DNA of 64,000 nucleotides, from the NCBI GenBank assembly GCA_022793335.1, contig JAAWCQ010000010.1, positions 84,278-148,277 of the forward strand. The letters run 5' to 3'. This stretch comes from Clostridia bacterium. GTDB taxonomy: Bacteria > Bacillota > Clostridia > Christensenellales > UBA1242. The notes beneath the pieces are model-generated. The model did no database searches. It saw only the letters and a list, made by a program, of their open reading frames with translations, and was not told the DNA's origin. The position numbers and the translations under genes were made by a program. This document shows positions 2,793-17,527 of the stretch, one piece after another. How positions within the stretch are numbered: the stretch's first letter is position 1; each line of letters begins with the position of its first letter.

Positions 2793-2807
2793 TAATACCT
2801 CCAGTGT

Positions 2808-3632: not shown

Positions 3633-3855
3633 ATTTGCTCCTTTTAATTTTTGACTTTCGCTTAAAGTGATCGGTTTTAAGGTCGGTCTATATTTTAACG
3701 AGATCTCGAGTTCTCGATAAAACCAAGATTAATTTGGTTAATTGTAATGTAGCATTTTCGTGTGGACAGCATTTGTCCTCACGGGGAAATTTTTTTTTGT
3801 TATTTTAAAACTCTCGTTTAACACACATTGTGTGCTTCGGTAAATTTAAATAAAA

Positions 3856-3881
3856 AACAACCAACTATTTTGCTGGTTGTT
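3856..3881 (-). terminator. Hairpin with T-run on the minus strand
   Basis: AACAACCA (3856-3863) pairs with TGGTTGTT (3874-3881). Read leftwards the stem is followed by a run of T, as in an intrinsic terminator. No minus-strand gene lies directly upstream of it in this element, so it may insulate the replication-type gene or be left from a lost gene. Confidence 0.55.
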
Positions 3882-4022
3882 AAGAAGTATTTTGCCTATA
3901 ACTCTATTATATGGCAATTTTTTAATCATCCTTTAATCATTCATTTTCATAATTTATCAAAATTTAATCAATGTTTTCAGATTATATGATTTCTTCACGC
4001 GTAAAAAATTATTTGTCACACT

Positions 4023-4059
4023 GTCATCCTGTCATTTAGTGACGGAATGACAGGATGAC
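4023..4059. repeat. Perfect 14-bp inverted repeat
   Basis: GTCATCCTGTCATT (4023-4036) and AATGACAGGATGAC (4046-4059) are exact reverse complements around a 9-base loop. A T-run follows at about 4070-4076, so it could terminate rightward transcription, but no rightward gene precedes it. It may instead be a protein-binding or origin structure of the element. Confidence 0.75.
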
Positions 4060-4092
4060 GGATACATACTTTTTTTATTATATATAGGAAAA

Positions 4093-4106
4093 TCGCACGT
4101 GTGCGA
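4093..4106. repeat. Palindrome flanked by A- and T-runs
   Basis: TCGCACGTGTGCGA is a dyad with TCGCAC/GTGCGA arms, preceded by AAAA and followed within four bases by TTTTTT. It lies about 140 bases before the first rightward element gene and may be an operator or part of an origin. Confidence 0.5.
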
Positions 4107-4248
4107 GTAATTTTTTGCCTATAAAGTTAAGTGGATATACCTGTCACTTAGGAGGGGTTGCTTTATCTTTTTCTAATAATTTTAAAAAAAGACTTGCAAA
4201 ATATTTTTATTTACGGTAAAACACACAACAACCAAAGGAGGACAGGCT

Positions 4249-4617
4249 ATGAAAACACGGTTTTTGTGTGATATGCCTAATGCTAGGTTGTTGAGAAACA
4301 AGCTTGATAAAGGTAAAGGACAAAAAGTCGAATGTATCATTGAAAGAAATATTTATCTTGGTAAAGATGATTTTATTTACTTTCGAGAACATTTTCTAGA
4401 ACCAAATCCCAATATTATAACCAAATACAAAAATGAAATGTTTATTGACGATAAAGGCATTTGGCACGTTTTGATGCTTTGCAGTATGCGTTCAGATATT
4501 ATGTTGCTAGTTTTCTGCGATGGGTGCGATTATGCAAAATATGTTTCAATAAAAACTAATGGAGGTGAGAAAGTTGAACCACGTTTTACAACTAGTCAGA
4601 GATATACTAGAAAATGA
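4249..4617 (+). CDS. DUF6329-type small element protein
   Basis: A 122-residue soluble protein with a perfect AAAGGAGG ribosome binding site. The body reads KVECIIERNIYL, then FIDDKGIWHVLML and GCDYAKYVSI. This matches my memory of the DUF6329 family (Cys-x-x-x-Arg-x-x-Tyr-Leu, Val-Asp-x-x-Gly-Val-Trp-His, Tyr-Ala-Arg-Tyr), which is common on Clostridia plasmids, phages and conjugative elements and has no known function. It starts a short rightward operon with the next gene, whose start lies inside its 3' end. Family assignment is moderately sure. Confidence 0.75.
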   Translation: MKTRFLCDMPNARLLRNKLDKGKGQKVECIIERNIYLGKDDFIYFREHFLEPNPNIITKYKNEMFIDDKGIWHVLMLCSMRSDIMLLVFCDGCDYAKYVSIKTNGGEKVEPRFTTSQRYTRK

Positions 4618-4810
4618 AAAAATGACTGCTGAGATGCAGTTGCAATTATCCAAGATTTGCGAACTTGAAGATAAGTTTGTAAAGGACTTCTCAAAGGAAA
4701 AATGGAAAGAATATTTTGATTTAGACATAGAAAAATGTCAACTTCAAAACCTTGAAATTGACCATGTGATAGAGATTACTTATAAAATATGCAAAGAGTT
4801 ATTAAAATAA
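4574..4810 (+). CDS. Small helical protein of unknown function
   Basis: A 78-residue protein read from a TTG at 4574. That start is preferred over the ATG at 4559 because the optimal site GGAGGTGA (4561-4568) sits five bases before the TTG and would lie inside the longer version. It overlaps the preceding gene by 44 bases in another frame, so translation is probably coupled. The sequence is acidic and almost entirely helical (ELEDKFVKDFSKEKWKEYFDL), with one short Cys-containing segment. I do not recognise the family. Small helical partners of this kind are frequent in element backbones. Confidence 0.7.
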   Translation: MNHVLQLVRDILENEKMTAEMQLQLSKICELEDKFVKDFSKEKWKEYFDLDIEKCQLQNLEIDHVIEITYKICKELLK

Positions 4811-4851
4811 ACGAGAACTATGCTATAATGCAATTAAGGAGATAGCATAAT

Positions 4852-6051
4852 ATGAATAATGATACACATGACTATTTATATAAAACACATATTATAACTA
4901 AAATACTTGATATGGATCATGTAGAAGGCATTAAACTTTTTTTGGAAAATATTGATATTCTTCAAGATGTTAACTTTATTATCCCAAATCCATATATGGA
5001 CGGCATTAATTACATGGAAAAATTTAGAGCCTTAAATCTTAAAGGAATAGATGTAAATTATTTTTTTACTAATGAAGATTTATATGGTTTTAATGCAGAC
5101 TCTATAATGTCAATTATGGTTTTCAATAAAGACATTATTAAAACCGAAACGCTAATAAGTTTAGATACGCAAATTCAAAGTTATCTTTATAGAAGATATA
5201 AAAATGAAAAAAGCAGTATTCCAGAGAATATTGAAGAGGTTTTGAAACTTATAAAAGACAGAAAATGGGGAGTGGATTGCATGGCTTATATGTTTGAAAA
5301 TACGCTTTTTAATCCTGAATTTTCTAACAATCAACTATATCTAGACAATATGTATGCATTTGAGACTTATTTTTTCAATAGCCCTCGAAAGGCAAAATCA
5401 TATACAAAGAAGCTTTTAAAATTTGATAATAAATTGATAAATGATGATTTTTCAAATTGGTACCGTCGCCAATATAAATTATATTATTTAGAACTTTTAG
5501 TTATGGCAGATATTCAACTTAATAAATCTCATTTATCCCTATATGATAAAGAAAAAGAATTTGTTAAATTTTTTCATGAAAAAATAGGTCTTTTATCTGA
5601 TAGAGAAACCAATTTGGCTAAGTTATATTTCATGTATGGAACTAAAATAGGCTTTTTTAGCAAAATTCAAAAAGGTAATAAAAACATTATTAAAAATTTG
5701 AAAAATATGGCCTGGGATATCTTTCATATACATAACACAATTAATAACTTAGCAATTCAAACAAATAAAATTATAGATATTACTGTTCCATTGTTTGTAA
5801 CTTATGACAAACGCCTAAAAGATATTTTGCCTATTTACAAATTGAAAGCCGCTGCATTTATTAAAAATAGCTCGCAAAAATGGCTTAACTATGTCACAAA
5901 TATAATTGATCCTGTTATACAAAATGAGTATTTCGTATTACAAGCATATGAAAACAGATTAAATAGGATGAAAGAAAATAATGTCGATGAAAAATCTTTA
6001 CTAGCACTCACCAATTCTTATATTGAAAGTTATGAACAAAAATTTCTTTAA
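4852..6051 (+). CDS. Unknown element cargo protein with PIN-like acidic motifs
   Basis: A 399-residue soluble protein with its own extended -10 promoter (TGCTATAAT, 4821-4829) and RBS AAGGAGATAG. I do not recognise a named family. Four acidic positions fall in contexts like PIN-domain nucleases: SLDTQIQSYL (Asp105), WGVDCMAYMFEN (Asp142), MAWDIFHIHN (Asp289) and LFVTYDKRLKDIL (Asp319). The last resembles the 'tnDkrl' end of VapC-like nucleases, which use such residues to bind metal and cut RNA. Between them lies a long helical region rich in Tyr and Lys. It is followed by a membrane-anchored gene under a near-identical promoter, so the pair may act together. Nuclease activity is inference only. 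Confidence 0.72.
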   Translation: MNNDTHDYLYKTHIITKILDMDHVEGIKLFLENIDILQDVNFIIPNPYMDGINYMEKFRALNLKGIDVNYFFTNEDLYGFNADSIMSIMVFNKDIIKTETLISLDTQIQSYLYRRYKNEKSSIPENIEEVLKLIKDRKWGVDCMAYMFENTLFNPEFSNNQLYLDNMYAFETYFFNSPRKAKSYTKKLLKFDNKLINDDFSNWYRRQYKLYYLELLVMADIQLNKSHLSLYDKEKEFVKFFHEKIGLLSDRETNLAKLYFMYGTKIGFFSKIQKGNKNIIKNLKNMAWDIFHIHNTINNLAIQTNKIIDITVPLFVTYDKRLKDILPIYKLKAAAFIKNSSQKWLNYVTNIIDPVIQNEYFVLQAYENRLNRMKENNVDEKSLLALTNSYIESYEQKFL

Positions 6052-6149
6052 AGATACTTCTTCGTATTGCTTTTAGGTTATTTTTAAAAACTTGTATTTT
6101 AGTTGAGATTATGCTATAATACTTCTATTAAAAAGCAAGGAGATTATTT

Positions 6150-6677
6150 ATGGAAATTCTATCTATTGTTTTATCTACTATCGCATTAATTGTATCTGCA
6201 ATTGGTGTTACTGTATCAATAATCACAGCAAAGTTACAATATAAACGATCAGTGAATGTTGATGTGGAAAGTGATTCCGCAAATTTTGCTTTAGTAAATG
6301 GTAAAGAAAAAATGATTCCATCTTTTACCTACATCATAACAAATTCTTCTAATTTGCCTATCTTTATAAAAGAAATAGGTTTTATGGGCTTCACTGATGA
6401 TAGCAAAAAACTAGAAATGGTAGAAATTGGTCATTATGAGCCAAGTGATGATAGACAGCTTGTAAAATTGGAAGCGCAAAATAGTATTAATTATTTTATT
6501 TCTATGAAAGATATGAGCAGTTTAATAAAAAATTGCATCTTTAAGTATAACGTTAAAAATTTTATAACTTGCATAAGATGCTCCAATGGCAAAATATACA
6601 AGCATAATTTTGGTGATGCTAAAAAATTTTATAAAGCCTATTTTTATCAATTTGAAACAATGCCAGAATATTATTAA
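6150..6677 (+). CDS. Small membrane-anchored protein, unknown function
   Basis: A 175-residue protein with RBS AAGGAGATTATTT before the ATG and an extended -10 promoter (TGCTATAAT, about 6111-6119). Residues 3-26 form one hydrophobic segment (IVLSTIALIVSAIGVTVSII) followed by KLQYKR, so the N-terminus is a membrane anchor with a cytoplasmic or outward soluble part. The rest is beta-rich, with alternating strands such as SFTYIITNSSNLPIFIKEIG, which looks like an immunoglobulin-type sandwich. No enzyme motif is visible. It is the last gene before the attachment site, a usual position for cargo. Confidence 0.7.
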   Translation: MEILSIVLSTIALIVSAIGVTVSIITAKLQYKRSVNVDVESDSANFALVNGKEKMIPSFTYIITNSSNLPIFIKEIGFMGFTDDSKKLEMVEIGHYEPSDDRQLVKLEAQNSINYFISMKDMSSLIKNCIFKYNVKNFITCIRCSNGKIYKHNFGDAKKFYKAYFYQFETMPEYY

Positions 6678-6834
6678 ATCTTCAAATTGTACCCAAACGG
6701 CAAAACTGGGCAAAAAGTCACCATTTCTGTACCGTGGATTTATCAGAGTTTATGTTTATTGTGCAAAAGTTAGAGAAGTTGATTGTTTTTTTTTTGCAAA
6801 ATACTTGATATAATGTTTGTAAGAATTGCAAAAG

Positions 6835-6875
6835 GGAGCAATAGAAAAGTTAAAACAACTAGATTTTATTGCTCC
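6835..6875. repeat. Inverted repeat at the attachment core
   Basis: GGAGCAATA (6835-6843) and TATTGCTCC (6867-6875) are exact reverse complements. The right arm runs into the anticodon loop of the tRNA-Arg fragment. Integrase core-binding sites are normally short inverted repeats around the crossover, so this probably marks the attP-derived half of the junction. Confidence 0.6.
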
Positions 6876-6915
6876 TAAGGGTTAGTCACAGGTTCGATTC
6901 CTGTTGGGAACACCA
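6872..6915 (+). pseudogene. 3' fragment of tRNA-Arg(CCU), element attachment site
   Basis: From base 6872 the sequence reads as a tRNA from the anticodon loop to the 3' end: loop CTCCTAA with anticodon CCT at 6874-6876, stem strand GGGTT, T-arm ACAGG-TTCGATT-CCTGT (6888-6904), acceptor strand TGGGAAC, discriminator A and CCA (6913-6915). The 27-31 strand needed to pair with GGGTT and the whole 5' half are absent, so it is not a complete gene. Tyrosine integrases often target tRNA-Arg(CCU) and leave the intact gene at one end and a 3' copy at the other. The orientation says the element lies to the left and its other end is outside the window. Confidence 0.85.
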
Positions 6916-6920
6916 TGAAA

Positions 6921-6952
6921 AACGGTCATATTAAATTATGATCGTTTTTTTT
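6921..6952 (+). terminator. tRNA-type intrinsic terminator
   Basis: AACGGTCAT (6921-6929) pairs with ATGATCGTT (6938-6946), with one G-U pair, then eight T. It lies five bases after the CCA of the tRNA-Arg fragment and is probably the original terminator of the host tRNA gene, now separated from it by the element. Confidence 0.8.
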
Positions 6953-7267
6953 AGGCACGCAAGAATAATGAAAATGAAGCGAACATTTTCTTATAATATA
7001 TCGTTTAAAACTTTTAATAGTTTATTGCGTTTTAAATAATTTACAATAAGCTTCTAGTGTAAAGCAGAGTCGTTGTATCCCAGAAGTTGCTAACAGTTTG
7101 TATAGGGACATTTTGAGATAATAAACTTCAATAAGTGTGTCTAAGTTATGCCGCTCGTATGTTTGTTGTTGTGCTTTTAGGGAATAATTTTAAGTAAATA
7201 ACAGATTATTAAGAGGGTGTTTATTATAATAAAAAGGCAACTATTTAAAGTTTAAGTTTTTAAATAC
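6953..7267. other. Intergenic stretch, no gene seen
   Basis: About 315 AT-rich bases between the tRNA-Arg fragment terminator and the promoter of the next operon. I see no open frame with a ribosome binding site, no RNA gene and no clear repeat. Confidence 0.5.
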
Positions 7268-7296
7268 TTGACAAATTGCGAAATAAATATTACTAT
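7268..7296 (+). promoter_or_regulatory. Sigma-A-type promoter of the 7319 operon
   Basis: TTGACA at 7268-7273, then 17 bases, then TACTAT at 7291-7296. An overlapping TATAAA at 7294-7299 would give 20-base spacing. GGAGG at 7308-7312 follows before the Nudix start. Confidence 0.6.
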
Positions 7297-7318
7297 AAAT
7301 TATGAATGGAGGTAAATT

Positions 7319-7729
7319 ATGAGAAATAGTGCAAGAGGAATTATCATAAGAGATAATGCTGTTTTAACAATGTTTAGAAGAAAGGTTAAAGAAGGCAAGG
7401 TGACAGAATATTATGTATTGCCTGGTGGCGGAATTGAAGATGGAGAAAATAGCGAAGAAACTGTTGTGAGAGAACTTAAAGAGGAGATGTCTGTCGATAT
7501 TGAAATTCTTGGCTATTTAGGTAAAGATGAGACTGAACAAGGTGATGCAATCTACTATCATTGCAAAATTAAAAACGATGCTGACCCTAAACTTGGCGGA
7601 GAAGAACTTGAAAGAATGACTGAATCAAATTATTATGAACCACGTTTTGTTAGTATTGAGAATTTAGATAAGATAAACATTTATGGTGCTGATTATATAT
7701 ATAGGGCATTGAAAAAAGAGTATAAATAG
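7319..7729 (+). CDS. Nudix hydrolase
   Basis: A 136-residue Nudix protein that would hydrolyse a nucleoside diphosphate linked to another group. The Nudix box runs from GGIEDGENSEETVV into RELKEEMSV, with the metal-binding Glu residues present; the usual Gly after EE is Ser. Substrate cannot be read from the sequence. It is the first gene of a tight rightward operon: eight bases to the SDR gene, then GT2, then the NDK-like gene. The start has a strong GGAGG. In this setting the natural substrate could be a nucleotide-activated intermediate of the pathway rather than damaged dNTPs, which is inference. Confidence 0.9.
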   Translation: MRNSARGIIIRDNAVLTMFRRKVKEGKVTEYYVLPGGGIEDGENSEETVVRELKEEMSVDIEILGYLGKDETEQGDAIYYHCKIKNDADPKLGGEELERMTESNYYEPRFVSIENLDKINIYGADYIYRALKKEYK

Positions 7730-7736
7730 AATACGA

Positions 7737-8471
7737 ATGAAATTACTCAAAAAAAACATTTTAATAACTGGTGGAGCTGGTGGAATAGGTAGTGAACTTG
7801 TCAAAAAACTGGCAGTAAGAAACCAGGTTATTGTTTTGGATAAAAATTTAAAATCAATTCAAAAATTCGTTGATGATATTGAGGGTAAAAAGCTTAATGT
7901 TAAATTTTTTGCATGTGATATTTCAGATTTGACCAAAACAAATCAATTGTTAGAAGATATCAATTTAAAGTATGGTAAAATTGATGTATTAATCAATAAT
8001 GCCGCAATACAACGTGTTGGAGATTTTCTTGAAACAGAATTTATTGATGTCTTGAATACTAATATTATTGGTACAATGAATCTTACAAAATTGGTTGTCA
8101 AAAATATGATAAGTGGTGGAATGGTTTTTAATGTATTGTCTGTTCATGCATTTGTTACAAGAAGGCATAAGATTTCATATGATGTCAGCAAAGCAGCATT
8201 ACTAATGTTTACAAAAGAGTTGGCTCTTGAATTGGCACCAAAAGGTATAACAGTTAATGCCATTTCAATGGGAGCTTGTAAAACGAAAATGAATGATGAC
8301 TGGTTAAATAATGCTTCAGCAGTCGCAAATGTAAAACGGAAAATTCCTTTAGGAAAAATTGAAAGTGCAAGAGAAGTTGCCAAACAGATTGTTAATTTAC
8401 TAGAAAACTTTTGCAATCAGACAACAGGAAGTAACTTTGTGATTGATCAAGGGCGATCATTGAGAGGCTAA
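7737..8471 (+). CDS. Short-chain dehydrogenase/reductase (SDR)
   Basis: A 244-residue classical SDR. The Rossmann dinucleotide motif is TGGAGGIG (residues 11-18), Asp35 in VLDKN suggests NAD(H) preference, NNAA lies at 87-90, and the catalytic triad is Ser135, Tyr148 and Lys152 in YDVSK. It should oxidise or reduce an alcohol or carbonyl on a small substrate. There is no obvious Shine-Dalgarno sequence before the ATG, and the preceding gene ends only seven bases upstream, so translation probably depends on coupling. Neighbours (GT2, NDK-like, kinase) suggest a sugar or nucleotide-linked substrate, but the exact one is unknown. Confidence 0.93.
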   Translation: MKLLKKNILITGGAGGIGSELVKKLAVRNQVIVLDKNLKSIQKFVDDIEGKKLNVKFFACDISDLTKTNQLLEDINLKYGKIDVLINNAAIQRVGDFLETEFIDVLNTNIIGTMNLTKLVVKNMISGGMVFNVLSVHAFVTRRHKISYDVSKAALLMFTKELALELAPKGITVNAISMGACKTKMNDDWLNNASAVANVKRKIPLGKIESAREVAKQIVNLLENFCNQTTGSNFVIDQGRSLRG

Positions 8472-8474
8472 ATA

Positions 8475-9404
8475 ATGAGTTTTTCTTTCAGTATTATAGT
8501 ACCATATTTTAATAATAGCAAAACAGTTGACAAAACGATCAAATCAATAAAAAATCAAAATTATGAAAACTTTGAGGTCATTTTTGTTGATGATGGAAGT
8601 GCGCAGAGTGAGTTTGATTATTTAGAAAAAGCTACTAAAAAAATAAAGAACAAGCAAGTGTTAAAAATAGCTCATAGTGGTCTTTCATCTGCAAGAAATC
8701 ATGGAATAAAAGAATCAAAGAATGATTATATTCTATTTTTAGATTCAGATGATGAAATAAATGAAAATTTGCTTTCAAAACTAAATAAGTTTTTGATTAA
8801 AAATCAGGATGCAGATGTCATAAGATTCTTTGGACAAAGAATAAATGCCGATGGTGATATAACAGAAATATTAGATTTCCCTTTCTGTAAAAATGAGCAA
8901 GGTGAGGAGGTTATGAAAAAGGTTTTTACGACCGACTCAGATAAAGTGTTGGGGTTTGTTTGGCTGCTGGCTATAAAGAATGATTTTATTTTAAATAATG
9001 ATATTTCCTTTGAGGAAGGTGTATATCATGAAGACTATCTTTTCTTTTTTAAATATATGTTACTTGCACAGCATTTCTATACTTTTGATTTTATTGGTTA
9101 TAGATACTTTCAAAACCCTCACGGAATTATTAGGCGAAATGATTATGAATTAAAAAGAAAGAAAAGCTTTAATATGCTTTCAAATTCTGTTTATCTTATA
9201 GATTATTATAAAAAAATATCCAAAAATAATTCATTTAAACAGGTTGCGGAAAAATATTTTTCCTATTGTGCCTATAGAAAAATAAAATACTTAAATAAAG
9301 TTGATACAAAAGAATTTTTAAATGAGTTGAAGAAAAATAACATAAATTATAGGAAATATGTTGGTTTTGAGAATTATGGACATTCAATATCAAAATTTTT
9401 GTAA
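8475..9404 (+). CDS. Glycosyltransferase family 2
   Basis: A 309-residue GT-A fold glycosyltransferase. The N-terminus reads FSIIVPYFNNSKTVDKTI, followed by FEVIFVDDGS with the first Asp pair, SSARNHGIKES, and the DxD-type YILFLDSDDEIN near residue 90 that binds the metal and nucleotide-sugar. A later EEGVYHEDYLFFFKY carries the usual catalytic 'ED' segment. There is no membrane segment, so it is cytosolic or peripheral. The start is three bases after the SDR stop. GT2 enzymes of this size commonly build surface polysaccharide, but a single one beside an NDK-like protein and a small-molecule kinase could also glycosylate a soluble product. Confidence 0.93.
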   Translation: MSFSFSIIVPYFNNSKTVDKTIKSIKNQNYENFEVIFVDDGSAQSEFDYLEKATKKIKNKQVLKIAHSGLSSARNHGIKESKNDYILFLDSDDEINENLLSKLNKFLIKNQDADVIRFFGQRINADGDITEILDFPFCKNEQGEEVMKKVFTTDSDKVLGFVWLLAIKNDFILNNDISFEEGVYHEDYLFFFKYMLLAQHFYTFDFIGYRYFQNPHGIIRRNDYELKRKKSFNMLSNSVYLIDYYKKISKNNSFKQVAEKYFSYCAYRKIKYLNKVDTKEFLNELKKNNINYRKYVGFENYGHSISKFL

Positions 9405-9418
9405 AAGGAATTTTTAAT

Positions 9419-10060
9419 TTGAAAAGAAAAGCGGTTTTAATAATAAAACCAGATTTTATAACGAAGACTGGTTTAGATAAAATAGCAAAAGAGTTTGATG
9501 AACAAGGTCTTTTGTCTTGTATTGAAGGCACTTATAAAATAGATGGTTTTAAGATGTTTTCAAAATATCATAGAGAGCTTGAAATGCGTTTGTCTGATAA
9601 AGGTATGCTTGAGCAACAAAAAAAGTTGAAAGAGATGAACTTTACAATAGAGGCATATCCACAAGAGTATATTGATTATGGGATAATAGTTGTAATAAAA
9701 AATGACATGGAAGCAAGCGATGAAGAGTTTTTTCAAAAGGTTGATGCTGTAAAGAAGAATATACGAAATTTTATAAAGAAAGATGAGCTAGCTTCATTTG
9801 TGTTGAAACATGGTAAAACTTATAAGATTATTAAAGCACCAATAAGCCAGTGGCATGAGTGGAAAACGAGATATCAAGATAATCTTGGCTTTGCGTATTT
9901 TAATGGTGTCCATCTTGAAGACTATAGTCAATTTTTAGAACAACAAGATATAAGAATTTGTAAGCATCTTGGTGCTTTTGATGAGTGCAAAAAAATAAGG
10001 ATTTGCCAACTTCCTGTGTCTAGCGAAATAGAAATGGATGACCATGAGCTGGATATATAA
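9419..10060 (+). CDS. NDK-like domain protein of unknown role
   Basis: A 213-residue protein read from TTG at 9419 with AAAAGGAA upstream. The opening AVLIIKPDFITKTGLDKI matches the start of nucleoside diphosphate kinase (IKPD, residues 9-12). Near residue 165, YFNGVHLEDY resembles the NDK active-site segment N-x-x-H-x-x-D, with His165 in the place of the phosphorylated His. The middle differs from NDK: residues 55-130 hold an extra helical part, and the chain is about 60 residues longer than normal NDK (~150). It may transfer a phosphate to an unusual acceptor or only use the fold. It is the last gene of the operon. Its 3' end overlaps the convergent metallo-hydrolase gene by 41 bases. Confidence 0.8.
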   Translation: MKRKAVLIIKPDFITKTGLDKIAKEFDEQGLLSCIEGTYKIDGFKMFSKYHRELEMRLSDKGMLEQQKKLKEMNFTIEAYPQEYIDYGIIVVIKNDMEASDEEFFQKVDAVKKNIRNFIKKDELASFVLKHGKTYKIIKAPISQWHEWKTRYQDNLGFAYFNGVHLEDYSQFLEQQDIRICKHLGAFDECKKIRICQLPVSSEIEMDDHELDI

Positions 10061-10628
10061 ATATTTTTTTATCTTTGTATTTGCTCTTAAAATTGTTAAT
10101 ATTCTTTTTCCATAAGGCATTATTTGATGTAGGTAGGTCGGTATGAACTATTCTGTTATTAAAAATACTATCGCCAACAAAGAAATTATTCTCAATTTTA
10201 TATAAAACAGAACAGTCACTGTGTCCTTGAAAGGAAATGACCTCGATATTGATATCGCCAATTGTAATTATATCGTTGTTGGAAATAAAAAGGAGTTTTT
10301 CTTTTGGCAAATCAAAAGTCAAGTCTAGGTTGTGATTTTGTGAACAGTTAAGATAACTATCGTTTAATTTTTTAATTATATTTTCTGAACAATAAACTTT
10401 GCAATTATATTTAGCTGAGCACTCTGCGGTTGCAAGTAGGTGATCCCAATGCCCATGCGTGAGAAAAATTGCATTAAGCTTTTTGTTTTTAAGAAATCTT
10501 TTTATGGCTGCAGTGTCACAAGGGTCAATAGCTATATAAGATGAATTGGAAAAAATAATGTAGGAATTTATATCTATATTTCTGCTAGGTAAATTATAAG
10601 AATATTGCATTGTTTTAATGTTTATCAT
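10020..10628 (-). CDS. MBL-fold metallo-hydrolase
   Basis: A 202-residue metallo-beta-lactamase-fold enzyme of the glyoxalase II-like branch. The metal site is LTHGHWDH (His58, His60, Asp62, His63), a further ligand is in FQGHSD, and the chain ends with YPAHGHPF. It lacks any signal peptide. The start codon is one base after the stop of the upstream nucleotidyltransferase gene (read leftwards), so the two are one transcript. MBL enzymes cut esters, thioesters or phosphodiesters, and this sequence does not show which. Convergent overlap with the NDK-like gene hints that the two halves of the cluster evolved together. Confidence 0.92.
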   Translation of the reverse strand: MINIKTMQYSYNLPSRNIDINSYIIFSNSSYIAIDPCDTAAIKRFLKNKKLNAIFLTHGHWDHLLATAECSAKYNCKVYCSENIIKKLNDSYLNCSQNHNLDLTFDLPKEKLLFISNNDIITIGDINIEVISFQGHSDCSVLYKIENNFFVGDSIFNNRIVHTDLPTSNNALWKKNINNFKSKYKDKKIFIYPAHGHPFLFR

Positions 10629-10629
10629 T

Positions 10630-11277
10630 TTATAAATCCATATCTATTAAGTAGTTGTTTATAATTGAGTATAACTGGCAAACAGATAATTCTCTTCGCC
10701 TGTTGAATAATTCGCAAAGAGACACTTTGTCCTTTGGATAAAACTGTTTGATTGCGATGTCAATTTCTTTAAAATCATATTTTATTACGCTTTGGGCTTC
10801 TAATAATAATTTTTTTATTAAAACTAACTTTTTAAAAAGAGGTCGAAACTCATTGTAATTACTTCTTTTCACACTAATTATTGTTTTAGCAAGTTCACTT
10901 TTATAGTTTTGACACACATCTTCAATACTAACTATAGGAAGTTTTAATGTTTGTTCTTGAAATAAAATTTTGTTTTTGCCATTTGAAATTTCATAAAATG
11001 TAATTATGCATCTCTGCGGAATGAGCATTTTATCTAGTTCATTTTGAGTAAAAAAGGTTGTCCCAATATGAATTTTACAACTAGAAAAATAATTCAAAAA
11101 TTCTTGTATTTTTAAAAGATTGGTTGTTTTTGTGATTATTATATAGTCAAGGTCGCTCCAGTTTTCGATAAATTTGTTTTTGCCAGCACTTCCACAGAGA
11201 ATTATTCCAAGAAGGTCACTGAAAAACTCTTTGCTTTTTTCTAATATCTCAATGTTAATTTTATCAACAGTTTCCAT
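10630..11277 (-). CDS. Nucleotidyltransferase-fold (pol beta-type) protein
   Basis: A 215-residue protein with the minimal nucleotidyltransferase pattern: CGSAG (Gly29-Ser30) followed by WSDLDYIII (Asp42 and Asp44, metal ligands). A helical C-terminal half follows, as in antibiotic adenylyltransferases and KNTase-type proteins. It probably transfers a nucleotide to a small molecule or protein. There is no Shine-Dalgarno site. A promoter (11312-11284) places the transcription start at the ATG, so the mRNA should be leaderless. It leads the leftward pair with the metallo-hydrolase and is divergent from the HAD gene. Confidence 0.85.
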   Translation of the reverse strand: METVDKINIEILEKSKEFFSDLLGIILCGSAGKNKFIENWSDLDYIIITKTTNLLKIQEFLNYFSSCKIHIGTTFFTQNELDKMLIPQRCIITFYEISNGKNKILFQEQTLKLPIVSIEDVCQNYKSELAKTIISVKRSNYNEFRPLFKKLVLIKKLLLEAQSVIKYDFKEIDIAIKQFYPKDKVSLCELFNRRRELSVCQLYSIINNYLIDMDL

Positions 11278-11283
11278 AAAAAA

Positions 11284-11312
11284 ATTGTAATTAAAAATAG
11301 CAAATATGTCAA
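11284..11312 (-). promoter_or_regulatory. Promoter giving a leaderless mRNA
   Basis: On the minus strand: TTGACA (11312-11307), 17-base spacer, TACAAT (11289-11284), then six bases before the ATG at 11277. Transcription should start at or next to the start codon. Confidence 0.75.
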
Positions 11313-11332
11313 GTTATTTAGAGGGGAAATAT

Positions 11333-11992
11333 ATGATTTTAATTGATGCTGTCGGAGTTTTGATGTATAGCACAAAAACTGAAAAATTGATTAAAGATTA
11401 TCTTATTTCCTTAGATTTTGAGGAGATTTTTGTTGAAGAAGTGTTGAAATCTATGCACAAGTATGATTTTGGAGATTGTTTTACAACTAAAGAATGGTTT
11501 TCATCTTTTAAACAAGAGCTTGATTTTTATAATAATATATTGTCTGAAATTATAGATAAGATAGACCCTTCAAAACAAAAAATAATTTTCCAATCTTTAT
11601 ATAACTTTTTGCCATTTAATCAAAGAATATTGTACGATGATACAAAATTGTATTTGGAGAAATTAAGCAAACTTGACAAAGTTGTGCTAGTATCAAATGC
11701 CCATGCTTCAATGTTTCAACTGCTTGAAAAATTTGATATAAAAAGATACTTTTACAAAATTTACCTTTCTTGCGATTTGGCGTGTGCAAAGCCTAGCAGA
11801 ATCTTTTTTGAAAAAGTTTTAAGCGATTTAGGGGTGAAGGCAAAAAGTTGCTTTTATATTGATGATTGTAAGCAAAATATCATTGAGGCATCAAAACTTG
11901 AAATCAATTCTATTTTAATAGATAGGAAAACTGATAGTGCAGAAATTAAAAATTTAAAGGACTTTTATGAAAAGATTAGAACTGAATATTAG
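11333..11992 (+). CDS. HAD-superfamily hydrolase
   Basis: A haloacid-dehalogenase-type phosphatase of 219 residues from the ATG at 11333, chosen because GAGGGG lies just upstream; an upstream ATG at 11306 has no site. Motif I is LIDAVGVL: nucleophile Asp5 is present but the second Asp of DxD is Val, as sometimes in dehalogenase-type members. Motif II is VLVSNAH, motif III uses Lys in CAKPSRIFF, and motif IV is YIDDCKQN. The cap is helical and lies after motif I. It should act on a phosphorylated or halogenated small substrate. The next gene starts inside its 3' end, so it is coupled to the kinase-like protein. Confidence 0.9.
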   Translation: MILIDAVGVLMYSTKTEKLIKDYLISLDFEEIFVEEVLKSMHKYDFGDCFTTKEWFSSFKQELDFYNNILSEIIDKIDPSKQKIIFQSLYNFLPFNQRILYDDTKLYLEKLSKLDKVVLVSNAHASMFQLLEKFDIKRYFYKIYLSCDLACAKPSRIFFEKVLSDLGVKAKSCFYIDDCKQNIIEASKLEINSILIDRKTDSAEIKNLKDFYEKIRTEY

Positions 11993-12983
11993 AAAATTGA
12001 CAGAAAATATTACAGATAAAAATTCTTTTGGAATATGCAAGATAAATAGAAAAAAATATTTCTATAAAACTTTTCATCATTCAGAAGACTATCAAAATGA
12101 AATAGATTGCTATGATGTAATTGATGGTAAAATAAAAGCGCCTCGAAGATTTTTTTTGTTAGAGAATGAAAAGACAATTATATATGAACTTATTAAAAAT
12201 ATAAATAGAAAAAATCTTCATCATTATTTATATACGAGTTTGAAAAAACCCAACATCAGATTTTTAGATTACATGCAGGTGTTGCCTATAAAAAGAGAAG
12301 AACATCTTTGTAAAAATACAAAATTTTTCCGACAAAGAGTTGCAATTATTGATTCATATTTAAAAGGGATTGACTTGCTTAATAGAAAAATTTTTGTAGG
12401 TGGCAATGAGTTTGATTTAAGAAAAATATTAAAAGAAACAAAACAAAAAATAATTGAAGAAAAACTGCTTACTACAATTTTGTCACAAGGGGATCCTATC
12501 GACCTTAATCTTCTTAATGATGGAACAGTTGTTGATTTTGAAACCGCAGGAGAAAATTCACTAATAGGAGAAATTGCGATATTTATAAATAATATTTTAA
12601 TAAATGGATATTACTTTTTTATAAAATATGCAAAATCAGATTATAAAAACTACTTGAAAGACTATAAAAAAAACAAGAAGAATTTGAAATGCAGATATGA
12701 GATGAGCTCTGATATTGTCAATATCAACTTTGAAGTTTTTGTACCTAAAAAAAACAGATTTTTAATAAATGATTATATTGATTATTTTCAGTCGAGATTG
12801 AGCGTTGATGAGAAAAGGGAAATAGATAATTATTTAAAATACTATCTCATTTTTAGATTCATTTCACCTAAAAATTGGTTTGAATTTTCTGAAGAAGATT
12901 TAATATCAACATTTGCACTAATTTGTATTACTTACAAAAATATTTCAAGTATAGATGATGTTAAAAATTTTATTAACAAATAG
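11967..12983 (+). CDS. Aminoglycoside-phosphotransferase-like kinase
   Basis: A 338-residue protein with a choline/aminoglycoside kinase-like active site. Residues 172-181 read LSQGDPIDLN, where Gln174 replaces the usual His of HGD, Asp176 is the catalytic base and Asn181 a metal ligand. VVDFETAG (Asp190, Glu192) is the DFE-type metal motif. The N-lobe Lys is probably Lys34 in YKTF. It would phosphorylate a small molecule in the cytosol. The start overlaps the HAD gene by 26 bases. A kinase coupled to a phosphatase-fold enzyme suggests a phosphorylated intermediate in this cluster. The substrate is unknown. Confidence 0.82.
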   Translation: MKRLELNIRKLTENITDKNSFGICKINRKKYFYKTFHHSEDYQNEIDCYDVIDGKIKAPRRFFLLENEKTIIYELIKNINRKNLHHYLYTSLKKPNIRFLDYMQVLPIKREEHLCKNTKFFRQRVAIIDSYLKGIDLLNRKIFVGGNEFDLRKILKETKQKIIEEKLLTTILSQGDPIDLNLLNDGTVVDFETAGENSLIGEIAIFINNILINGYYFFIKYAKSDYKNYLKDYKKNKKNLKCRYEMSSDIVNINFEVFVPKKNRFLINDYIDYFQSRLSVDEKREIDNYLKYYLIFRFISPKNWFEFSEEDLISTFALICITYKNISSIDDVKNFINK

Positions 12984-13341
12984 TGTTGAGTAAATAGCGT
13001 AATTAAAAAGGGAATTTATCATATTAGAATGTTTACTTGATATTGCAAATATAATATAAATTAGCAAACAAATAGGATTAGGTGGTTAGTATTTCTTATC
13101 CACTAAACACAATTAAGCCTTTCGGGGCTTTTTTTATTTGCAAAATGTTTAAGTTTAGCAAGAATTAGCATAGATTGGAGAAAGTTAGACGGCATTAGAA
13201 TTTTGGCATTTTATAATTGAAAGTAGGAGGTAGTAACTTTGAATATTTTAAGTCGATAACATTAAAAAATAGCAAGATTATTAAAAATATGCCGAATTAA
13301 AAAATCAATAATAAATAGAAATTTAAGTTAAGGAGAATTAC
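12984..13341. other. Intergenic stretch with terminator and micro-ORF remnant
   Basis: A strong AGGAGG (13225-13230) is followed by a TTG (13239) that runs only six codons before a stop, which looks like the decayed start of a gene upstream of the phage tail remnant. A terminator lies at 13115-13135. I see nothing else. Confidence 0.5.
13115..13135 (+). terminator. Intrinsic terminator
   Basis: AAGCC (13115-13119) and GGCTT (13126-13130) form a short stem followed by a T-run. It closes the rightward half of the biosynthetic-type cluster or an overlying small transcript. Confidence 0.7.
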
Positions 13342-14742
13342 ATGGAAATAAAACAATTTAAAGACAGGCAATCGTTGCATCCTGGAAGAAAAAAGTTGAC
13401 TATAATAAATCAAGAAGCAAATACGCTTACGGTTGATGAAGAATGGGCAGATAGTCCTAGTGTTGAAGGCTCTTTGGTAAATGCTGCAGTGCTTACAGAG
13501 TTTCAAAATGGCATTGTTGAGGCAGGCAACAATTCCAAGAATGCGGAAGGGGCGGCAGCAAGTGCAAAAAGTATAGCACAAGGTGCCGAGACAAAGGCGA
13601 CAAATGCGCTTTCTACCGCGCAAAGTGCAAATACGACAGCTTCAAGTGCCAAAACAATTGCACAAGGTGCTGAAACAAAAGCCAGCAGTGCAAAAGCTAT
13701 TGCAGAAGATGCACTTAATAAAGTTGAAACTTTTAATGGAAATGTTGATAATGAATTGTCTTGGACAAGCATAAATCCTCTTCAAAACAGGGCGGTAACT
13801 ATTGCTATAAGCAATAGACTTCCCAAAAGTGGTGGAGATATTACTGGTACTTTAAGGGTTTTTAATGAAAATCCGGAGTGGGTGTTAATCAATGATGAGG
13901 TTGATGTCACTATTGCTCCTAAAACCGCTAAACAAGAATTTAAATACAATGCATCCACAGTTATATCACAAAATTCACCTATAAGATTTGTTGGGAAAAT
14001 TCAGTATGACAATGTAACTAAAGATATAGATATTAAAGGGGCTAATAGGAAAGATTATACTGTCACTATAGAAGGTGGATATTTTAGTTTAAGTTTTGAT
14101 TCTATTATCAATATGTCAAAACAAGTTGTATTAAATTACATAAATACTTCTACAAAGACAATAAAAGTGTCTGGAAAAATTTACCAATGCAAAAGTGATA
14201 TACATACAAAACATATCGAAACCGATAGCATTATTGCATCTTCAATTGCATACAGCAATTCAGGCAAATTATATCCTTTAGCTACTCAAGCGGATATGAA
14301 TAGTGCAGATAATAATTTAAAATCAAAAATAGAGAGTGAGAGTGCCAAATTAAGTGGAGATTTAACTCAGATTCAAAGCAATTTGCAGGGGCAAATTGAC
14401 AATATTGTGTCGCAGATCGCAAACATTGTAAGCAAGCAAGTTGACATTTCTGTTGAAGAGATTAAGTCTTATTACGCCACTTGGAAGGCAGAAATCGGCA
14501 ATTTGAAGATTATTGGTGGAGCGACTCCTGCAAGTGAAGGTAAGAAAAACATTTATTTCAAAATGAATGGTGACACTGAAAATGATGTTTTTGACAACAT
14601 TTGTTTAGGTCTTTGGAGTGCTGGAAGATGGAGAACAGAATGTACTGCAAATGGCTGGCAATACACCTATATCAACAGCAAAAGTGAAGGTTATATCTTG
14701 CAAATCGGAAACGGAAGTTATTGGTTTGCAATTGGAATTTAG
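13342..14742 (+). CDS. Phage tail fibre / baseplate-type protein
   Basis: A 466-residue protein with RBS AAGGAGAA. Residues ~55-125 are an Ala/Ser/Thr-rich repetitive coiled region with the phrase IAQGAETKA repeated twice, typical of trimeric tail-fibre shafts. SGGDITGTLRV near residue 165 is the common tail-fibre 'GGxxTG' turn. A beta-rich middle, a second coiled region (ESAKLSGDLTQIQSNLQGQI) and a C-terminal domain with GLWSAGRWRTECTANGW follow; this C-terminus looks like a receptor-binding or chaperone-recognised tip. The next gene encodes its presumed assembly chaperone. No head, portal or lysis genes lie nearby, so this is a remnant or a domesticated module. Confidence 0.88.
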   Translation: MEIKQFKDRQSLHPGRKKLTIINQEANTLTVDEEWADSPSVEGSLVNAAVLTEFQNGIVEAGNNSKNAEGAAASAKSIAQGAETKATNALSTAQSANTTASSAKTIAQGAETKASSAKAIAEDALNKVETFNGNVDNELSWTSINPLQNRAVTIAISNRLPKSGGDITGTLRVFNENPEWVLINDEVDVTIAPKTAKQEFKYNASTVISQNSPIRFVGKIQYDNVTKDIDIKGANRKDYTVTIEGGYFSLSFDSIINMSKQVVLNYINTSTKTIKVSGKIYQCKSDIHTKHIETDSIIASSIAYSNSGKLYPLATQADMNSADNNLKSKIESESAKLSGDLTQIQSNLQGQIDNIVSQIANIVSKQVDISVEEIKSYYATWKAEIGNLKIIGGATPASEGKKNIYFKMNGDTENDVFDNICLGLWSAGRWRTECTANGWQYTYINSKSEGYILQIGNGSYWFAIGI

Positions 14743-14751
14743 GAGGATGAT

Positions 14752-15096
14752 ATGTATTATTTCAATAAAGGTTTTTATAAAAATATGCCAAATGAAAATG
14801 CAAGATATTTGTCGGATGAGCTTTATTATCAAATTATGGAAGCGATCGGAGATGGCGGAGTTTTGCAAGAAGATGAAAATGGAACGCCTTATGTTTGCGA
14901 AACTGTGCAAATGAAAGAAAATCAAATCGAAAATTTAAGAATTAGGCGTCAAATTGAATGTTTTAACATCGTTGACAGGCCTTTATGGCTTGCAAGTCTT
15001 TCGCCAGAGCAATATCAAGAGATTGTTGCTTGGAGGCAGGCGTGGTTGAATGTGACTATTTCGGGCGAAATTCCACAAAAACCATTATGGCTTTAA
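14752..15096 (+). CDS. Tail fibre assembly chaperone-like protein
   Basis: A 114-residue protein nine bases after the tail-fibre gene with RBS AGGAGGATGAT. It starts MYYFNKGFYKNMP and contains DELYYQIMEAIGDGG. The last 30 residues (SPEQYQEIVAWRQAWLNV, then PQKPLWL) carry the Trp-Arg and Pro-rich ending typical of Tfa-type phage chaperones that bind the fibre tip. It is complete. In phages such proteins are encoded directly after the fibre gene, exactly as here. A terminator follows at once. Confidence 0.82.
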   Translation: MYYFNKGFYKNMPNENARYLSDELYYQIMEAIGDGGVLQEDENGTPYVCETVQMKENQIENLRIRRQIECFNIVDRPLWLASLSPEQYQEIVAWRQAWLNVTISGEIPQKPLWL

Positions 15097-15106
15097 TGAT
15101 TAAAAA

Positions 15107-15133
15107 AAAGATACTTTAATTAGTATCTTTTTT
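15107..15133 (+). terminator. Bidirectional intrinsic terminator
   Basis: AAAGATACT (15107-15115) pairs with AGTATCTTT (15122-15130); A-run on the left and T-run on the right. It closes the phage remnant and may also stop the leftward MutT gene. Confidence 0.85.
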
Positions 15134-15178
15134 AATTTTTAATAATTTTTGTTGTTTATAACATTATTTTCAGCTTTT

Positions 15179-15637
15179 TTAATCAAAATTGTAAGAAATA
15201 AGCTTAAAATTCTCATCAAATTTAACATCTCCAGAAAATTCTTCGCCATCAAACATCTTTTTCATCCAGATTTTATCGGCAGCAAACATGTTGTCATAAG
15301 GAATTTCATCAAATTCAAACCAGCGTGGTTTCATTTCGTCAGACTCGCTGACAGTGCCTTCATAATCAGAAGCAACATAAACATGCATAATTTCATAGGT
15401 GGGCTCACCTTTTAAAAACATATCAAAATTGATAACTGCCTTTTTTGTATAATTTTTTGGAGTGACGCCAATTTCTTCTTGAGTTTCTCTTATCATAGCA
15501 TGCTCAATTTCTTCATCTTTTTCGACTTTGCCACCAATGCCATTGTAAAGCCCCATGCCAAAGCCTCTCTTTTTTTCTGCAAGCAATATTTTGTTGTCTT
15601 TGATAATTAAAAGCAGGGTGGTATTTAATGTTTTCAT
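15179..15637 (-). CDS. Nudix hydrolase, MTH1/MutT-like (8-oxo-dGTP type)
   Basis: A 152-residue Nudix enzyme with RBS AAGGAGAG. The segment KKRGFGMGLYNGIGGK before and into the Nudix box, then EEIEHAMIRETQEEIGV, matches the MTH1 branch that hydrolyses oxidised purine dNTPs. All Nudix-box residues are present. PRWFEFDEIPYDNMFAADK near the C-terminus is also MTH1-like: it holds the Trp and the acidic residue used for oxidised base recognition. It is monocistronic and sits between the phage remnant and tRNA-Trp. It probably sanitises the nucleotide pool. Confidence 0.93.
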   Translation of the reverse strand: MKTLNTTLLLIIKDNKILLAEKKRGFGMGLYNGIGGKVEKDEEIEHAMIRETQEEIGVTPKNYTKKAVINFDMFLKGEPTYEIMHVYVASDYEGTVSESDEMKPRWFEFDEIPYDNMFAADKIWMKKMFDGEEFSGDVKFDENFKLISYNFD

Positions 15638-15783
15638 ATTCTCTCCTTAGTAATTTATTTTCTCTTATTATTTTAGCTTTCTTGGGACTGTAAGTCAAAT
15701 ATTTATCAAGCATTTAATTGGGCTGTTAAACTAAAGATTTTGCTTGTAAGGATTAAACATTATCATAAAATTAAAAAAAATGT

Positions 15784-15812
15784 TTGACTTGAATGGAAAA
15801 GTGTGATAAACT
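15784..15812 (+). promoter_or_regulatory. Promoter of tRNA-Trp
   Basis: TTGACT (15784-15789), 17 bases, TAAACT (15807-15812), ending 15 bases before the tRNA. Confidence 0.7.
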
Positions 15813-15827
15813 AGCATAGTATTTTAT

Positions 15828-15901
15828 AGGGGTGTAGTTCATCGGTAGAATGAGAGTCTCCAAAACTCCAGAGGAGGGTTCAACTCCTTCCACCCCTGCC
15901 A
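15828..15901 (+). tRNA. tRNA-Trp (anticodon CCA)
   Basis: A 74-base cloverleaf: acceptor AGGGGTG/CACCCCT, D-arm GTTC/GAAT, anticodon loop CTCCAAA with anticodon CCA, T-arm GAGGG-TTCAACT-CCTTC, discriminator G (usual for bacterial tRNA-Trp) and an encoded CCA. The first anticodon-stem pair is an A-C mismatch. Confidence 0.95.
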
Positions 15902-15908
15902 ATTTTTA

Positions 15909-15965
15909 AATACGCCATGTAAGTGTTTTGTTATAAGCATTATCACTGTATGGTGTATTTTTTTT
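15909..15965 (+). terminator. Terminator after tRNA-Trp
   Basis: AATACGCCAT (15909-15918) pairs with ATGGTGTATT (15950-15959), with one G-U pair, followed by a long T-run. The loop is about 30 bases. Confidence 0.75.
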
Positions 15966-16160
15966 GTTTTGTCACTTTTTGGTCACAAATTATTCAAATT
16001 TGTGTTGATTTTTTCGTCCAAAAGAGCGATTGCTTTGTTTTTGGCGTTTGGTTAAAGGTGACCATAAGTTTTGATAGGATATACTAAAAAGGGTGTTTAG
16101 TGTAAGTTTGCTTGAAATATTTTTTTGACTGTGATATAATATTGGCAATGTGAGGTACAA

Positions 16161-16775
16161 ATGATTATTGGAGTAGACATTGATGGGGTACTTACCAAGC
16201 TTTATGCTTATTGTGTAAAGAAAAGCAAAGAGTTTTTTAAAAAAGAGAAGTCAAAAGGTGAAAAGTTTAAAAAATCAACCTGTCTTTATCAGCTGTTAGG
16301 GATGACCAAAGAGCAAGATAAGCGCTTTTGGAAGGAATACATTTGGGATTATTCTAAAGAGGTTAAGTTTTACAAGCATGCTTCAAAATTTCTTAATAAA
16401 TTGAGAGAGGCAGGGCATCAAATATATATTATTACTCTTAGGCAATATTTTGGAACAGGGGATGAAAACAGTGTTTTGATGGAAAACATTATCAAAGAGA
16501 CTTTTGCAAACAATGGAATTGTTTATGACAAGTTGTTTGGGCTTTATGGAAAGCGTGAAAAATTGACTTGCGTGCTTGAAAATAATGTGGATGTCATGAT
16601 TGATGACAGTTTTGAAAATCTTAGTGTAATTTCGCCACATGTTCCTTGCATTTGTTTTGATGCAAAATATAATCATGGCATTAAGCTTGATAATATGACA
16701 AGATGTAAAAATTGGAAGCAAGTTTATAAAGCTTTAAAGGTATTAGAAGAAAGCAAATTAAATGAGGTGAAATAA
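16161..16775 (+). CDS. HAD-family 5'-nucleotidase-like protein
   Basis: A 204-residue HAD protein of the 5'(3')-deoxyribonucleotidase-like (NT5C) group. Motif I is IIGVDIDGVLT at the very N-terminus with both Asp, motif II is YIITLRQ, and motif IV is VDVMIDDSFENL. A helical cap with many Lys residues lies between motifs I and II. Such proteins dephosphorylate (deoxy)nucleoside monophosphates. The start has GTGAGGT upstream. Its stop overlaps the start of the metallo-hydrolase gene by one base (TAATG), so the two are cotranslated and perhaps act on related substrates. Confidence 0.87.
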   Translation: MIIGVDIDGVLTKLYAYCVKKSKEFFKKEKSKGEKFKKSTCLYQLLGMTKEQDKRFWKEYIWDYSKEVKFYKHASKFLNKLREAGHQIYIITLRQYFGTGDENSVLMENIIKETFANNGIVYDKLFGLYGKREKLTCVLENNVDVMIDDSFENLSVISPHVPCICFDAKYNHGIKLDNMTRCKNWKQVYKALKVLEESKLNEVK

Positions 16776-17389: not shown

Positions 17390-17485
17390 TAATTTTATTA
17401 TAACTATTTAATTATAATTATTAAAAAATATTTATTTTAAAATAGATATTAAAAAATAACTTAAATTGATATGCGTTTTAAAATA

Positions 17486-17518: not shown

Positions 17519-17527
17519 ATAAAATTA

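Follow-up and report, generated by a model that had tools for sequence, protein, structure and literature searches.

The window analysed here is a stretch of 64,000 nucleotides from a Clostridia bacterium (C11:84278-148277 of a 1.41-Mb genome in 17 contigs). At positions 7319-12983 it contains a cluster of eight open reading frames (ORFs), all of them unbroken, which are predicted to encode a Nudix hydrolase, a short-chain dehydrogenase (SDR), a family 2 glycosyltransferase (GT2), a protein resembling nucleoside diphosphate kinase (NDK), a metallo-beta-lactamase-fold (MBL) hydrolase, a Pol-beta-type nucleotidyltransferase (NTase), a HAD hydrolase and a kinase resembling the aminoglycoside/choline kinases (APH). 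A reading made from the sequence alone had described these genes with their coordinates, folds and couplings, and the description agreed with Pfam matches, motifs and gene spacing (Table 1). The rightward Nudix, SDR, GT2 and NDK-like genes are separated by gaps of 7, 3 and 14 bp. The NDK-like gene overlaps the MBL gene tail to tail by 41 bp, and 1 bp lies between the MBL and NTase genes on the minus strand. The NTase and HAD genes diverge with 28 bp between them, and the HAD and APH genes overlap by 26 bp. Promoter-like sites were found ahead of both operons; since the region contains 49 such sites against 40.5 (standard deviation 7.4) expected, the site ahead of the Nudix gene is weak evidence. 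For terminator-like hairpins 3 were observed and 1.5 (standard deviation 1.3) expected.

Table 1. Genes and putative signals of the cluster (positions in the window).
Feature	Position	Strand	Evidence	Remark
Nudix hydrolase, 136 aa	7319..7729	+	PF00293, E 7e-13	core gene
Classical SDR, 244 aa	7737..8471	+	PF00106 (adh_short), E 8e-46	core gene in two genomes (own, G948)
GT2, 309 aa	8475..9404	+	PF00535 (Glycos_transf_2), E 9e-29	addition, not in G948
NDK-like protein, 213 aa, TTG start	9419..10060	+	IKPD and NG[IV]HLED	core gene in two genomes
MBL hydrolase, 202 aa, glyoxalase II-like	10020..10628	-	PF00753 (Lactamase_B), E 1.5e-15	addition
Pol-beta-type NTase, 215 aa	10630..11277	-	GSAGK and WSDxD	core gene
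HAD hydrolase, 228 aa	11306..11992	+	PF13419 (HAD_2), E 6e-12	addition; fused to APH in G941
APH-like kinase, 338 aa	11967..12983	+	5-member alignment	core gene; in all four related loci
Promoter-like site TTGACA-17-TACTAT	7268..7296	+	consensus scan, 10/12	ahead of Nudix-SDR-GT2-NDK-like operon
Promoter-like site TTGACA-17-TACAAT	11284..11312	-	consensus scan, 11/12, top score of the region	ahead of NTase-MBL
Terminator-like hairpin	13115..13130	+	consensus scan	downstream of APH, after the cluster

To find related loci, 197 genomes of the same bacterial family were searched with a joined NTase and APH query, and the surroundings of the positives other than the own genome were compared; this and the other genome samples used here are neither random nor exhaustive. 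Five genomes were positive: the own genome, G948 (locus L110), G941 (L111), G098 (L112) and G036 (L113). In G948, which belongs to another genus, the Nudix, SDR and NDK-like genes lie on one strand, the NTase gene on the opposite strand and the APH gene divergently, which is the order and strand arrangement of the window, with spacings of 4, 10, 0 and 52 bp. Identity to the window proteins is 57% for Nudix and SDR, 46% for the NTase and 38% for the NDK-like and APH proteins. A promoter-like site (11/12; L110:10835-10806), one of two tied for best there, again precedes the NTase gene. Because G948 has this arrangement without GT2, MBL and HAD, sequence comparison divides the eight genes into a core of five (Nudix, SDR, NDK-like, NTase, APH) and three additions. 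The proposal of the sequence-only reading that all eight genes form one cluster for one product is thus too strong, since the eight are not conserved as a single unit.

The core order is more than chance because it recurs in another genus. A chance run of unrelated accessory genes at an integration hotspot is very improbable as an explanation of the whole: that GT2, MBL and HAD lie outside the core common to G948, that the cluster is AT-rich and that an integrative element adjoins it (see below) would agree with such a run, but the five-gene core is found in the same order and on the same strands at 38-57% identity, and HAD and APH recur as a fusion. Chance assembly is therefore contradicted for the core and still possible for GT2 and MBL. 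The base composition and the lack of a transporter gene had been correctly noted from the sequence: the cluster has a GC content of 27.9% against 34.9% in the window right of 16 kb, and neither the eight ORFs nor the library scans revealed a transporter gene inside it. AT-richness is, however, no constant mark of the cluster. The GC contents of cluster and rest of the stretch are 27.5/32.8% in L110 and 30.7/38.8% in L113, but L112 (27.8/28.2%) and L111 (36.8/34.9%) show no such contrast.

The other three genomes contain variants. In G941, from the same genus as G948, HAD and APH form one protein of 552 aa, to whose HAD part the window HAD is 37% identical; this is the only one of the four related loci with a HAD, and its contig extends 334 bp past the gene. 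In G036 and G098 a gene for a fusion of an NTase with a P-loop-kinase-like domain lies between the APH and Nudix genes; these three and a TIM-barrel gene share one strand and are spaced by -1 to 55 bp. The TIM-barrel gene stands in place of the SDR gene; its product is xylose-isomerase-like (PF01261, E 4e-24 and 2e-22 in L112 and L113) and matches the CbiR family weakly, under its cut-off. The P-loop assignment is our own reading of GLDNVGKTTQ-type stretches, and the PDB matches of this domain are weak, e.g. nicotinamide riboside kinase with E 0.17. A further fusion was seen at L131:2227-3465, where an NTase and a Nudix domain form one protein of 412 aa; downstream of it we read a P-loop-like protein, a protein with Cys-pair motifs and a sugar-nucleotide dehydrogenase-like gene.

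The sequence-only reading had named occurrence of the genes in unrelated contexts as evidence against itself, and this is not what we found. APH and NTase within 1 kb of each other and Nudix in the same cluster were present in four of the five APH-bearing family genomes (own, G948, G036 and G098), the fifth being G941 with its nearby contig end. As judged from the sequences, the constant part consists of APH, NTase and Nudix, and HAD, MBL and GT2 are optional. Two parts appear exchangeable: the partner of nucleotide-kinase type is either NDK-like or P-loop, and the carbon-skeleton enzyme is either an SDR or a TIM barrel.

The window NTase and APH-like proteins had no Pfam model at E <= 0.1. 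NCBIfam gave superfamily-level matches for the cluster proteins, nearly all under their cut-offs, and the PHROGs matches were generic. In the NTase, GSAGK and WSDxD are invariant among four homologues, so that the GS...DxD pattern of Pol-beta nucleotidyltransferases (PF01909; MNT, ANT, CD-NTase) is present. L113 passes the PF01909 cut-off of 21 bits (23.1) and L112 fails it (17.3); the window and L110 proteins have no match. The cluster-type NTases differ from the more distant L131 NTase-Nudix protein by an invariant histidine, H70 (codon at window 11068-11070), where L131 has Asp, and from the known enzymes by the P-loop-kinase-like or Nudix fusions of the relatives; H70 possibly occupies the position of the third metal ligand. 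In the APH-like protein K34, E45, SQGDPxDxN, D190 and E192 are invariant in the five-member alignment. This includes all residues of the pattern GDxxxxN...D with an upstream Lys and Glu (D176, N181, D190, K34 and E45), which in APH kinases have ATP-binding and catalytic roles. In contrast to those kinases the window protein has no Pfam or NCBIfam family match, the profile of all five members found no PDB sequence up to E 1, and among the relatives the only family match was one to DUF3685 below its cut-off. We counted the invariance of the catalytic-type residues in both proteins in favour of the metabolite cassette proposed below.

Two adjoining folds of APH and aminoglycoside-NTase type would also suit a detoxifying cassette, in which APH would phosphorylate and the NTase nucleotidylate a toxic small molecule to inactivate it, and MBL and the others would modify it further. 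The NTase of G948 matches ANT(4')-II weakly (E 0.039), and the NTase profile has a weak match to the aminoglycoside nucleotidyltransferase 4ebj (E 0.34). On the other side, the plasmid collection contained no match for the window NDK-like, NTase and APH proteins and a single weak match for the L113 fusion (Lactococcus, E 4e-3, with unrelated neighbours); NTase fusions with P-loop or Nudix domains, an SDR or a TIM barrel are unusual for resistance genes. We consider such a cassette improbable. Membership in the aminoglycoside resistance families (ANT/APH) was rejected, as the window NTase and APH match no resistance model of NCBIfam and the G948 NTase reaches 13.2 bits against a cut-off of 350.

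Of the three additions, the HAD protein lacks an Asp two residues past its presumed nucleophile (D14-x-V16; the same in L111). The arrangement of HAD followed by an APH kinase in the L111 protein resembles ACAD10-type proteins; the likeness is one of domain make-up, and no acyl-CoA dehydrogenase domain was seen in the L111 protein. The MBL protein matches TIGR03413 (E 7e-14) with 51.8 bits, below the cut-off of 200.8. It could be a local relative of the MBL-fold gene at window 16775-17389 in the neighbouring conserved block, because the congener copies of that gene match part of it with 26-42% identity.

The NDK-like protein and its relatives are an undescribed family, which comprises eight sequences with the motifs KPD and NG[IV]HLED. 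K10, P11, D12, R52, R116, N162, G163, H165, L166, E167 and D168 are invariant in all eight. The lysine of KPD and the phosphohistidine motif N-x-x-H have their roles in NDK (PF00334), and both are thus present in every member: IKPD stands near the N-terminus, and a later N-x-[IV]-H with an Asp three residues on is shared with most of eight canonical NDKs. A kinship to NDK is suggestive, and we use the name NDK-like instead of NDK. When the profile of two NDK-like sequences was compared with that of the eight canonical NDKs, the score was 33.1 (probability 53, 51 columns); with all eight NDK-like sequences it was 25.7 over 31 columns, and in both cases none of 200 column shuffles was as good. 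The window sequence alone ranked 12th of 2001 against shuffles, and the best PDB sequence for the eight-member profile is an NDK (6ay1, E 0.16). There are also differences. The window protein is considerably longer than an NDK (about 140 aa), with an extra segment ahead of the His motif. It matches PF00334 with E 0.07 and 13.4 bits, below the cut-off of 27, and only one of the eight members matched this family at E <= 1. Two AlphaFold2 models had pLDDT values of 48 and 57, the latter with two alignment rows and a pTM of 0.57; the modelled order of strands and helices is compatible with the NDK fold and with other ferredoxin-like folds. The best matches listed by Foldseek for the two-row model were a phage SAM lyase and PII/GlnK-type proteins. 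Of 79 genomes of the class 8 have a canonical NDK, as do 12 of 14 control genomes; the own genome (G000, 95.6% complete) is among the 71 in which none was found.

Three congeners (G1145, G1164 and G1139; loci L127, L129 and L130) contain one NDK-like stretch at the head of a longer protein and one stand-alone copy each. The longer proteins have 495 aa in L127 and 488 aa in L129, and in L130 the contig ends after 279 aa. The second half of the L129 protein appears PHP-like (PF02811, E 0.0013, 19.6 bits against a cut-off of 26.4) and matched 13 records of the plasmid collection, one annotated as RNase AM and one as YciV. The two NDK-like genes belong to a conserved, undescribed cluster (L129:1545-12584; L127:9290-19328; L130:1-8865). 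Domains were scored in L129, where two radical SAM proteins, an aldo-keto reductase-type protein, AAA_28, another P-loop-type protein and DUF402 lie between and around the NDK-like genes; L127 and L130, read from protein ends, have the same gene order without the AAA_28 gene. A neighbour of 346 aa without Pfam match shows what we read as a phosphoribosyltransferase-like motif. At L127:7323-9116 a GT4 glycosyltransferase is fused to a HAD domain and matches GT4-conflict (PF20706) at the cut-off with 26 bits. Because the NDK-like relatives adjoin DUF402, P-loop and phosphoribosyltransferase-like proteins and one of them is joined to a PHP-type half, their surroundings point to nucleotide chemistry.

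The same surroundings, with an NDK-like relative joined to a half similar to RNase AM/YciV and adjoining DUF402 and P-loop proteins, would be expected if the window cluster served salvage or repair of damaged nucleotides or RNA ends, with phosphatases, kinases, NTase and Nudix trimming and rebuilding them; the constant parts, too, look phosphate- or nucleotide-handling. Pfam and NCBIfam, however, recognised no RNA ligase, polynucleotide kinase or RNA-binding domain in the window cluster, SDR and GT2 do not fit, and the rare distribution is at odds with a housekeeping role, so that repair seems to us a doubtful, rather improbable function. A bolder proposal is that KPD...NG[IV]HLED marks a new family of phosphohistidine-type phosphotransferases working in at least two unrelated, undescribed nucleotide-derived pathways of one bacterial family, that of the cassette and that of the radical-SAM/PHP/DUF402 cluster in congeners, and that the product of the cassette belongs to a new class of nucleotide-linked metabolites or signals. 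We give this proposal little credence at present.

The cassette is rare, patchy and so far seen in one bacterial family. When 100 genomes of the own genus were scanned with a joined NDK-like/NTase/APH profile, all three were present in the own genome only; NDK-like proteins alone were found in three genomes (two each) and an NTase in one. Of 13 genomes from the genus to which G948 belongs, two were positive with the APH profile; among 161 genomes of the order it found the own genome and one weak match besides (G1107, E 2.2e-4). Convincing APH scores were thus limited to one family within the samples scanned. Among 348 genomes of the phylum the APH query found itself and a match in a frame with three stops. 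The NDK-like query retrieved only itself from 147 family genomes, itself and one chance match (an ORF reading like MiaA) from 391 genomes of the class, and nothing from the general genome-contig, viral-contig, plasmid and phage collections. A joined NDK-like and NTase query gave ten genomes at E <= 0.05, including the own, out of 398 of the phylum. Regions of five of the nine others were compared: the three NDK-type matches there appear accidental (a NuoC-like frame, a 58-aa frame and a frame with a stop), and in G826 and G529 no cluster protein matched at E <= 0.01. Of the other four genomes, G716 gave no match on re-comparison. The HAD query was positive in 11 of 144 family genomes including the own, the others being weak (best E 1e-8); the SDR scan of general genome contigs gave 12 loci at 25-32% identity; and GT2 matched 102 phage records, all below 60% identity. 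The Nudix protein has a 64%-identical paralogue on C9 of the same genome. A DNA search of window 6700-22000 against 21 genomes of the genus gave, among the matches listed, only the Nudix gene for the cluster span outside its own copy.

This patchiness (5 of 197 family genomes; the core in 1 of 100 genus genomes) would also suit a defence or biological-conflict system. In such a system infection would prompt the NTase to produce a nucleotide or to attach one, and the kinases and Nudix would regulate it or break it down. The chromosomal neighbours differ between the genomes (rpoB/rpoC-like genes follow L113 and a PrfA-like gene lies near L110, as read from unscored translations), parts are reshuffled and fused, and in the window an integrative element adjoins. 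The only PADLOC match of the cluster is a weak one of Nudix to the candidate PDC-S07; the NTases of the relatives give weak matches to PDC-S09 and to oligonucleotide cyclases (best E 6e-5), and CdnD in the PDB is a weak match of the NTase profile (E 0.039). These PADLOC matches are of a generic superfamily level, however, and the window NTase, NDK-like, APH, HAD, SDR, GT2 and MBL proteins have no PADLOC model at E <= 0.1. None of the clustered genes was recognised as effector-type; the membrane protein gene beside the G948 cluster is convergent with APH and overlaps the next, PrfA-like gene. In eight scans of viral contigs the NDK-like, APH, NTase and GT2 queries retrieved no relatives, although such scans reach mainly close relatives. 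Defence is in our view an unlikely function. Membership in CBASS was rejected, with no PADLOC match for the window NTase, only weak cyclase matches for its relatives and no recognised effector-type gene.

The sequence-only reading had also placed the cluster right after a tRNA-Arg integration site and implied a tie between the two. Such a site exists, but the intact tRNA-Arg(CCT) is found at C11:78491-78567, to the left of the window, which itself has only a displaced tRNA 3' end (6872-6915). The nine-base core CTCCTAAGG of the tRNA-Arg anticodon region (C11:78523) is repeated at window 6872, 12,626 bp apart, and a tyrosine integrase is encoded between the two copies (1168-2562). The integrative element delimited in this way is 12.6 kb long, encodes the tyrosine integrase, lies at the 3' part of tRNA-Arg(CCT) and covers window 1-6880 (C11:78523-91149). 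A related element end in G866 (L050) matches window 6701-6953 with 79%; read by eye, the match continues from the element end across the displaced tRNA 3' end into a terminator-like stretch and then stops. Because it stops there, the element ends at the core near 6880, and the cluster belongs to the chromosome beyond it. As cargo of this element the cluster was rejected, its start at 7319 lying beyond the second CTCCTAAGG copy, and the implied tie is not supported. Among the repeats listed (the best 20 of 34 direct families and 25 of 77 inverted pairs) none bounds the cluster.

To the right of the cluster follow tail-fibre-like ORFs (PHROGs), a second Nudix gene, tRNA-Trp and the conserved block. 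A tail-fibre-like ORF with a small companion between cluster and tRNA-Trp (window 13342-15096) is perhaps a phage remnant. The tRNA-Trp gene (window 15828-15901) shares its strand with the M1 peptidase gene of this block. In the congeners it lies on the opposite strand in all six loci that hold it, out of seven scanned, and this difference suggests a local rearrangement.

Taken together, we tentatively favour the view, to which we assign somewhat less than an even chance, that the cluster is an accessory, reshuffled enzyme cassette that builds a nucleotide-linked small metabolite, activates it and recycles it. The gene content, order, recurrence, fusions and conserved catalytic-type motifs behind this view are direct observations; from them we infer every reaction, the substrate and the order of steps. 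The SDR, or the TIM-barrel isomerase-like enzyme of the other variant, would shape a small hydroxylated substrate, which the APH-like kinase would phosphorylate and the Pol-beta NTase would join to a nucleoside monophosphate. Nucleotides for the NTase step would be phosphorylated by the NDK-like protein or, in the other variant, by the P-loop-kinase-like domain of the NTase fusion, and Nudix would cleave the linked product or by-products. In the window the added HAD phosphatase, MBL hydrolase and GT2 could trim or transfer the product. The fusions HAD-APH (L111), P-loop-kinase-like-NTase (L112, L113) and NTase-Nudix (L131) tie the parts together, core order and strands are conserved between genera with a promoter-like site ahead of the NTase gene in both clusters, and APH, NTase and Nudix stay constant where a P-loop-kinase-like domain and a TIM barrel replace NDK-like and SDR. 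Because these three are constant and HAD, MBL and GT2 optional, the data favour a pathway that phosphorylates and nucleotidylates a small metabolite, with reversal by Nudix, over a glycan pathway. Of the phosphorylated sugar or nucleotide-like product proposed from the sequence, the nucleotide and phosphate side is therefore retained, whereas sugar transfer is optional: tblastn at E <= 0.001 found no GT2 in L110-L113. Kinase, HAD phosphatase and nucleotidyltransferase side by side resemble the activation of NDP-sugars of the heptose type, but the cluster uses APH and Pol-beta enzymes instead of a GHMP kinase and a GT-A nucleotidyltransferase, and HAD is absent from three of the four related loci.

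Several results weigh against the cassette as we propose it. The cluster itself indicated no substrate, product or transporter, and a Pol-beta NTase is unusual for sugar-phosphate activation. The NDK-like and SDR proteins had no match in the G036 and G098 stretches, and the version in these genomes may be a different pathway. The assignment of the NDK-like protein is also affected: the larger profile scored lower against NDK than the two-member profile (probability 11 versus 53), the likeness to NDK comes from the N-terminal segment, to which the profile match is confined, and from a shared motif, the best PDB sequence matches of the single window protein are HipA/HipT (E 0.03) and not NDKs, and the G948 copy matches PF08684 (E 0.02) instead of NDK. 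The structure matches that the sequence-only reading had suggested looking for did not appear, as Foldseek returned no PDB match at E <= 1e-3 with either model.

Overall, the interpretation made from the sequence was partly supported. Its statement that no named pathway has this gene set agreed with the libraries used and with the literature, where a search of an open-licence full-text library found no paper on the gene combination. What has been gained is a five-gene core with an alternative version, and fusions that mark which parts belong together. The NDK-like, NTase and APH-like families, which the libraries used place poorly or not at all, thereby become biochemically testable. Should the cassette turn out to make a new nucleotide-linked metabolite, or a signal used in defence, the small-genome bacteria of this family would hold chemistry that is unrecognised by annotation.

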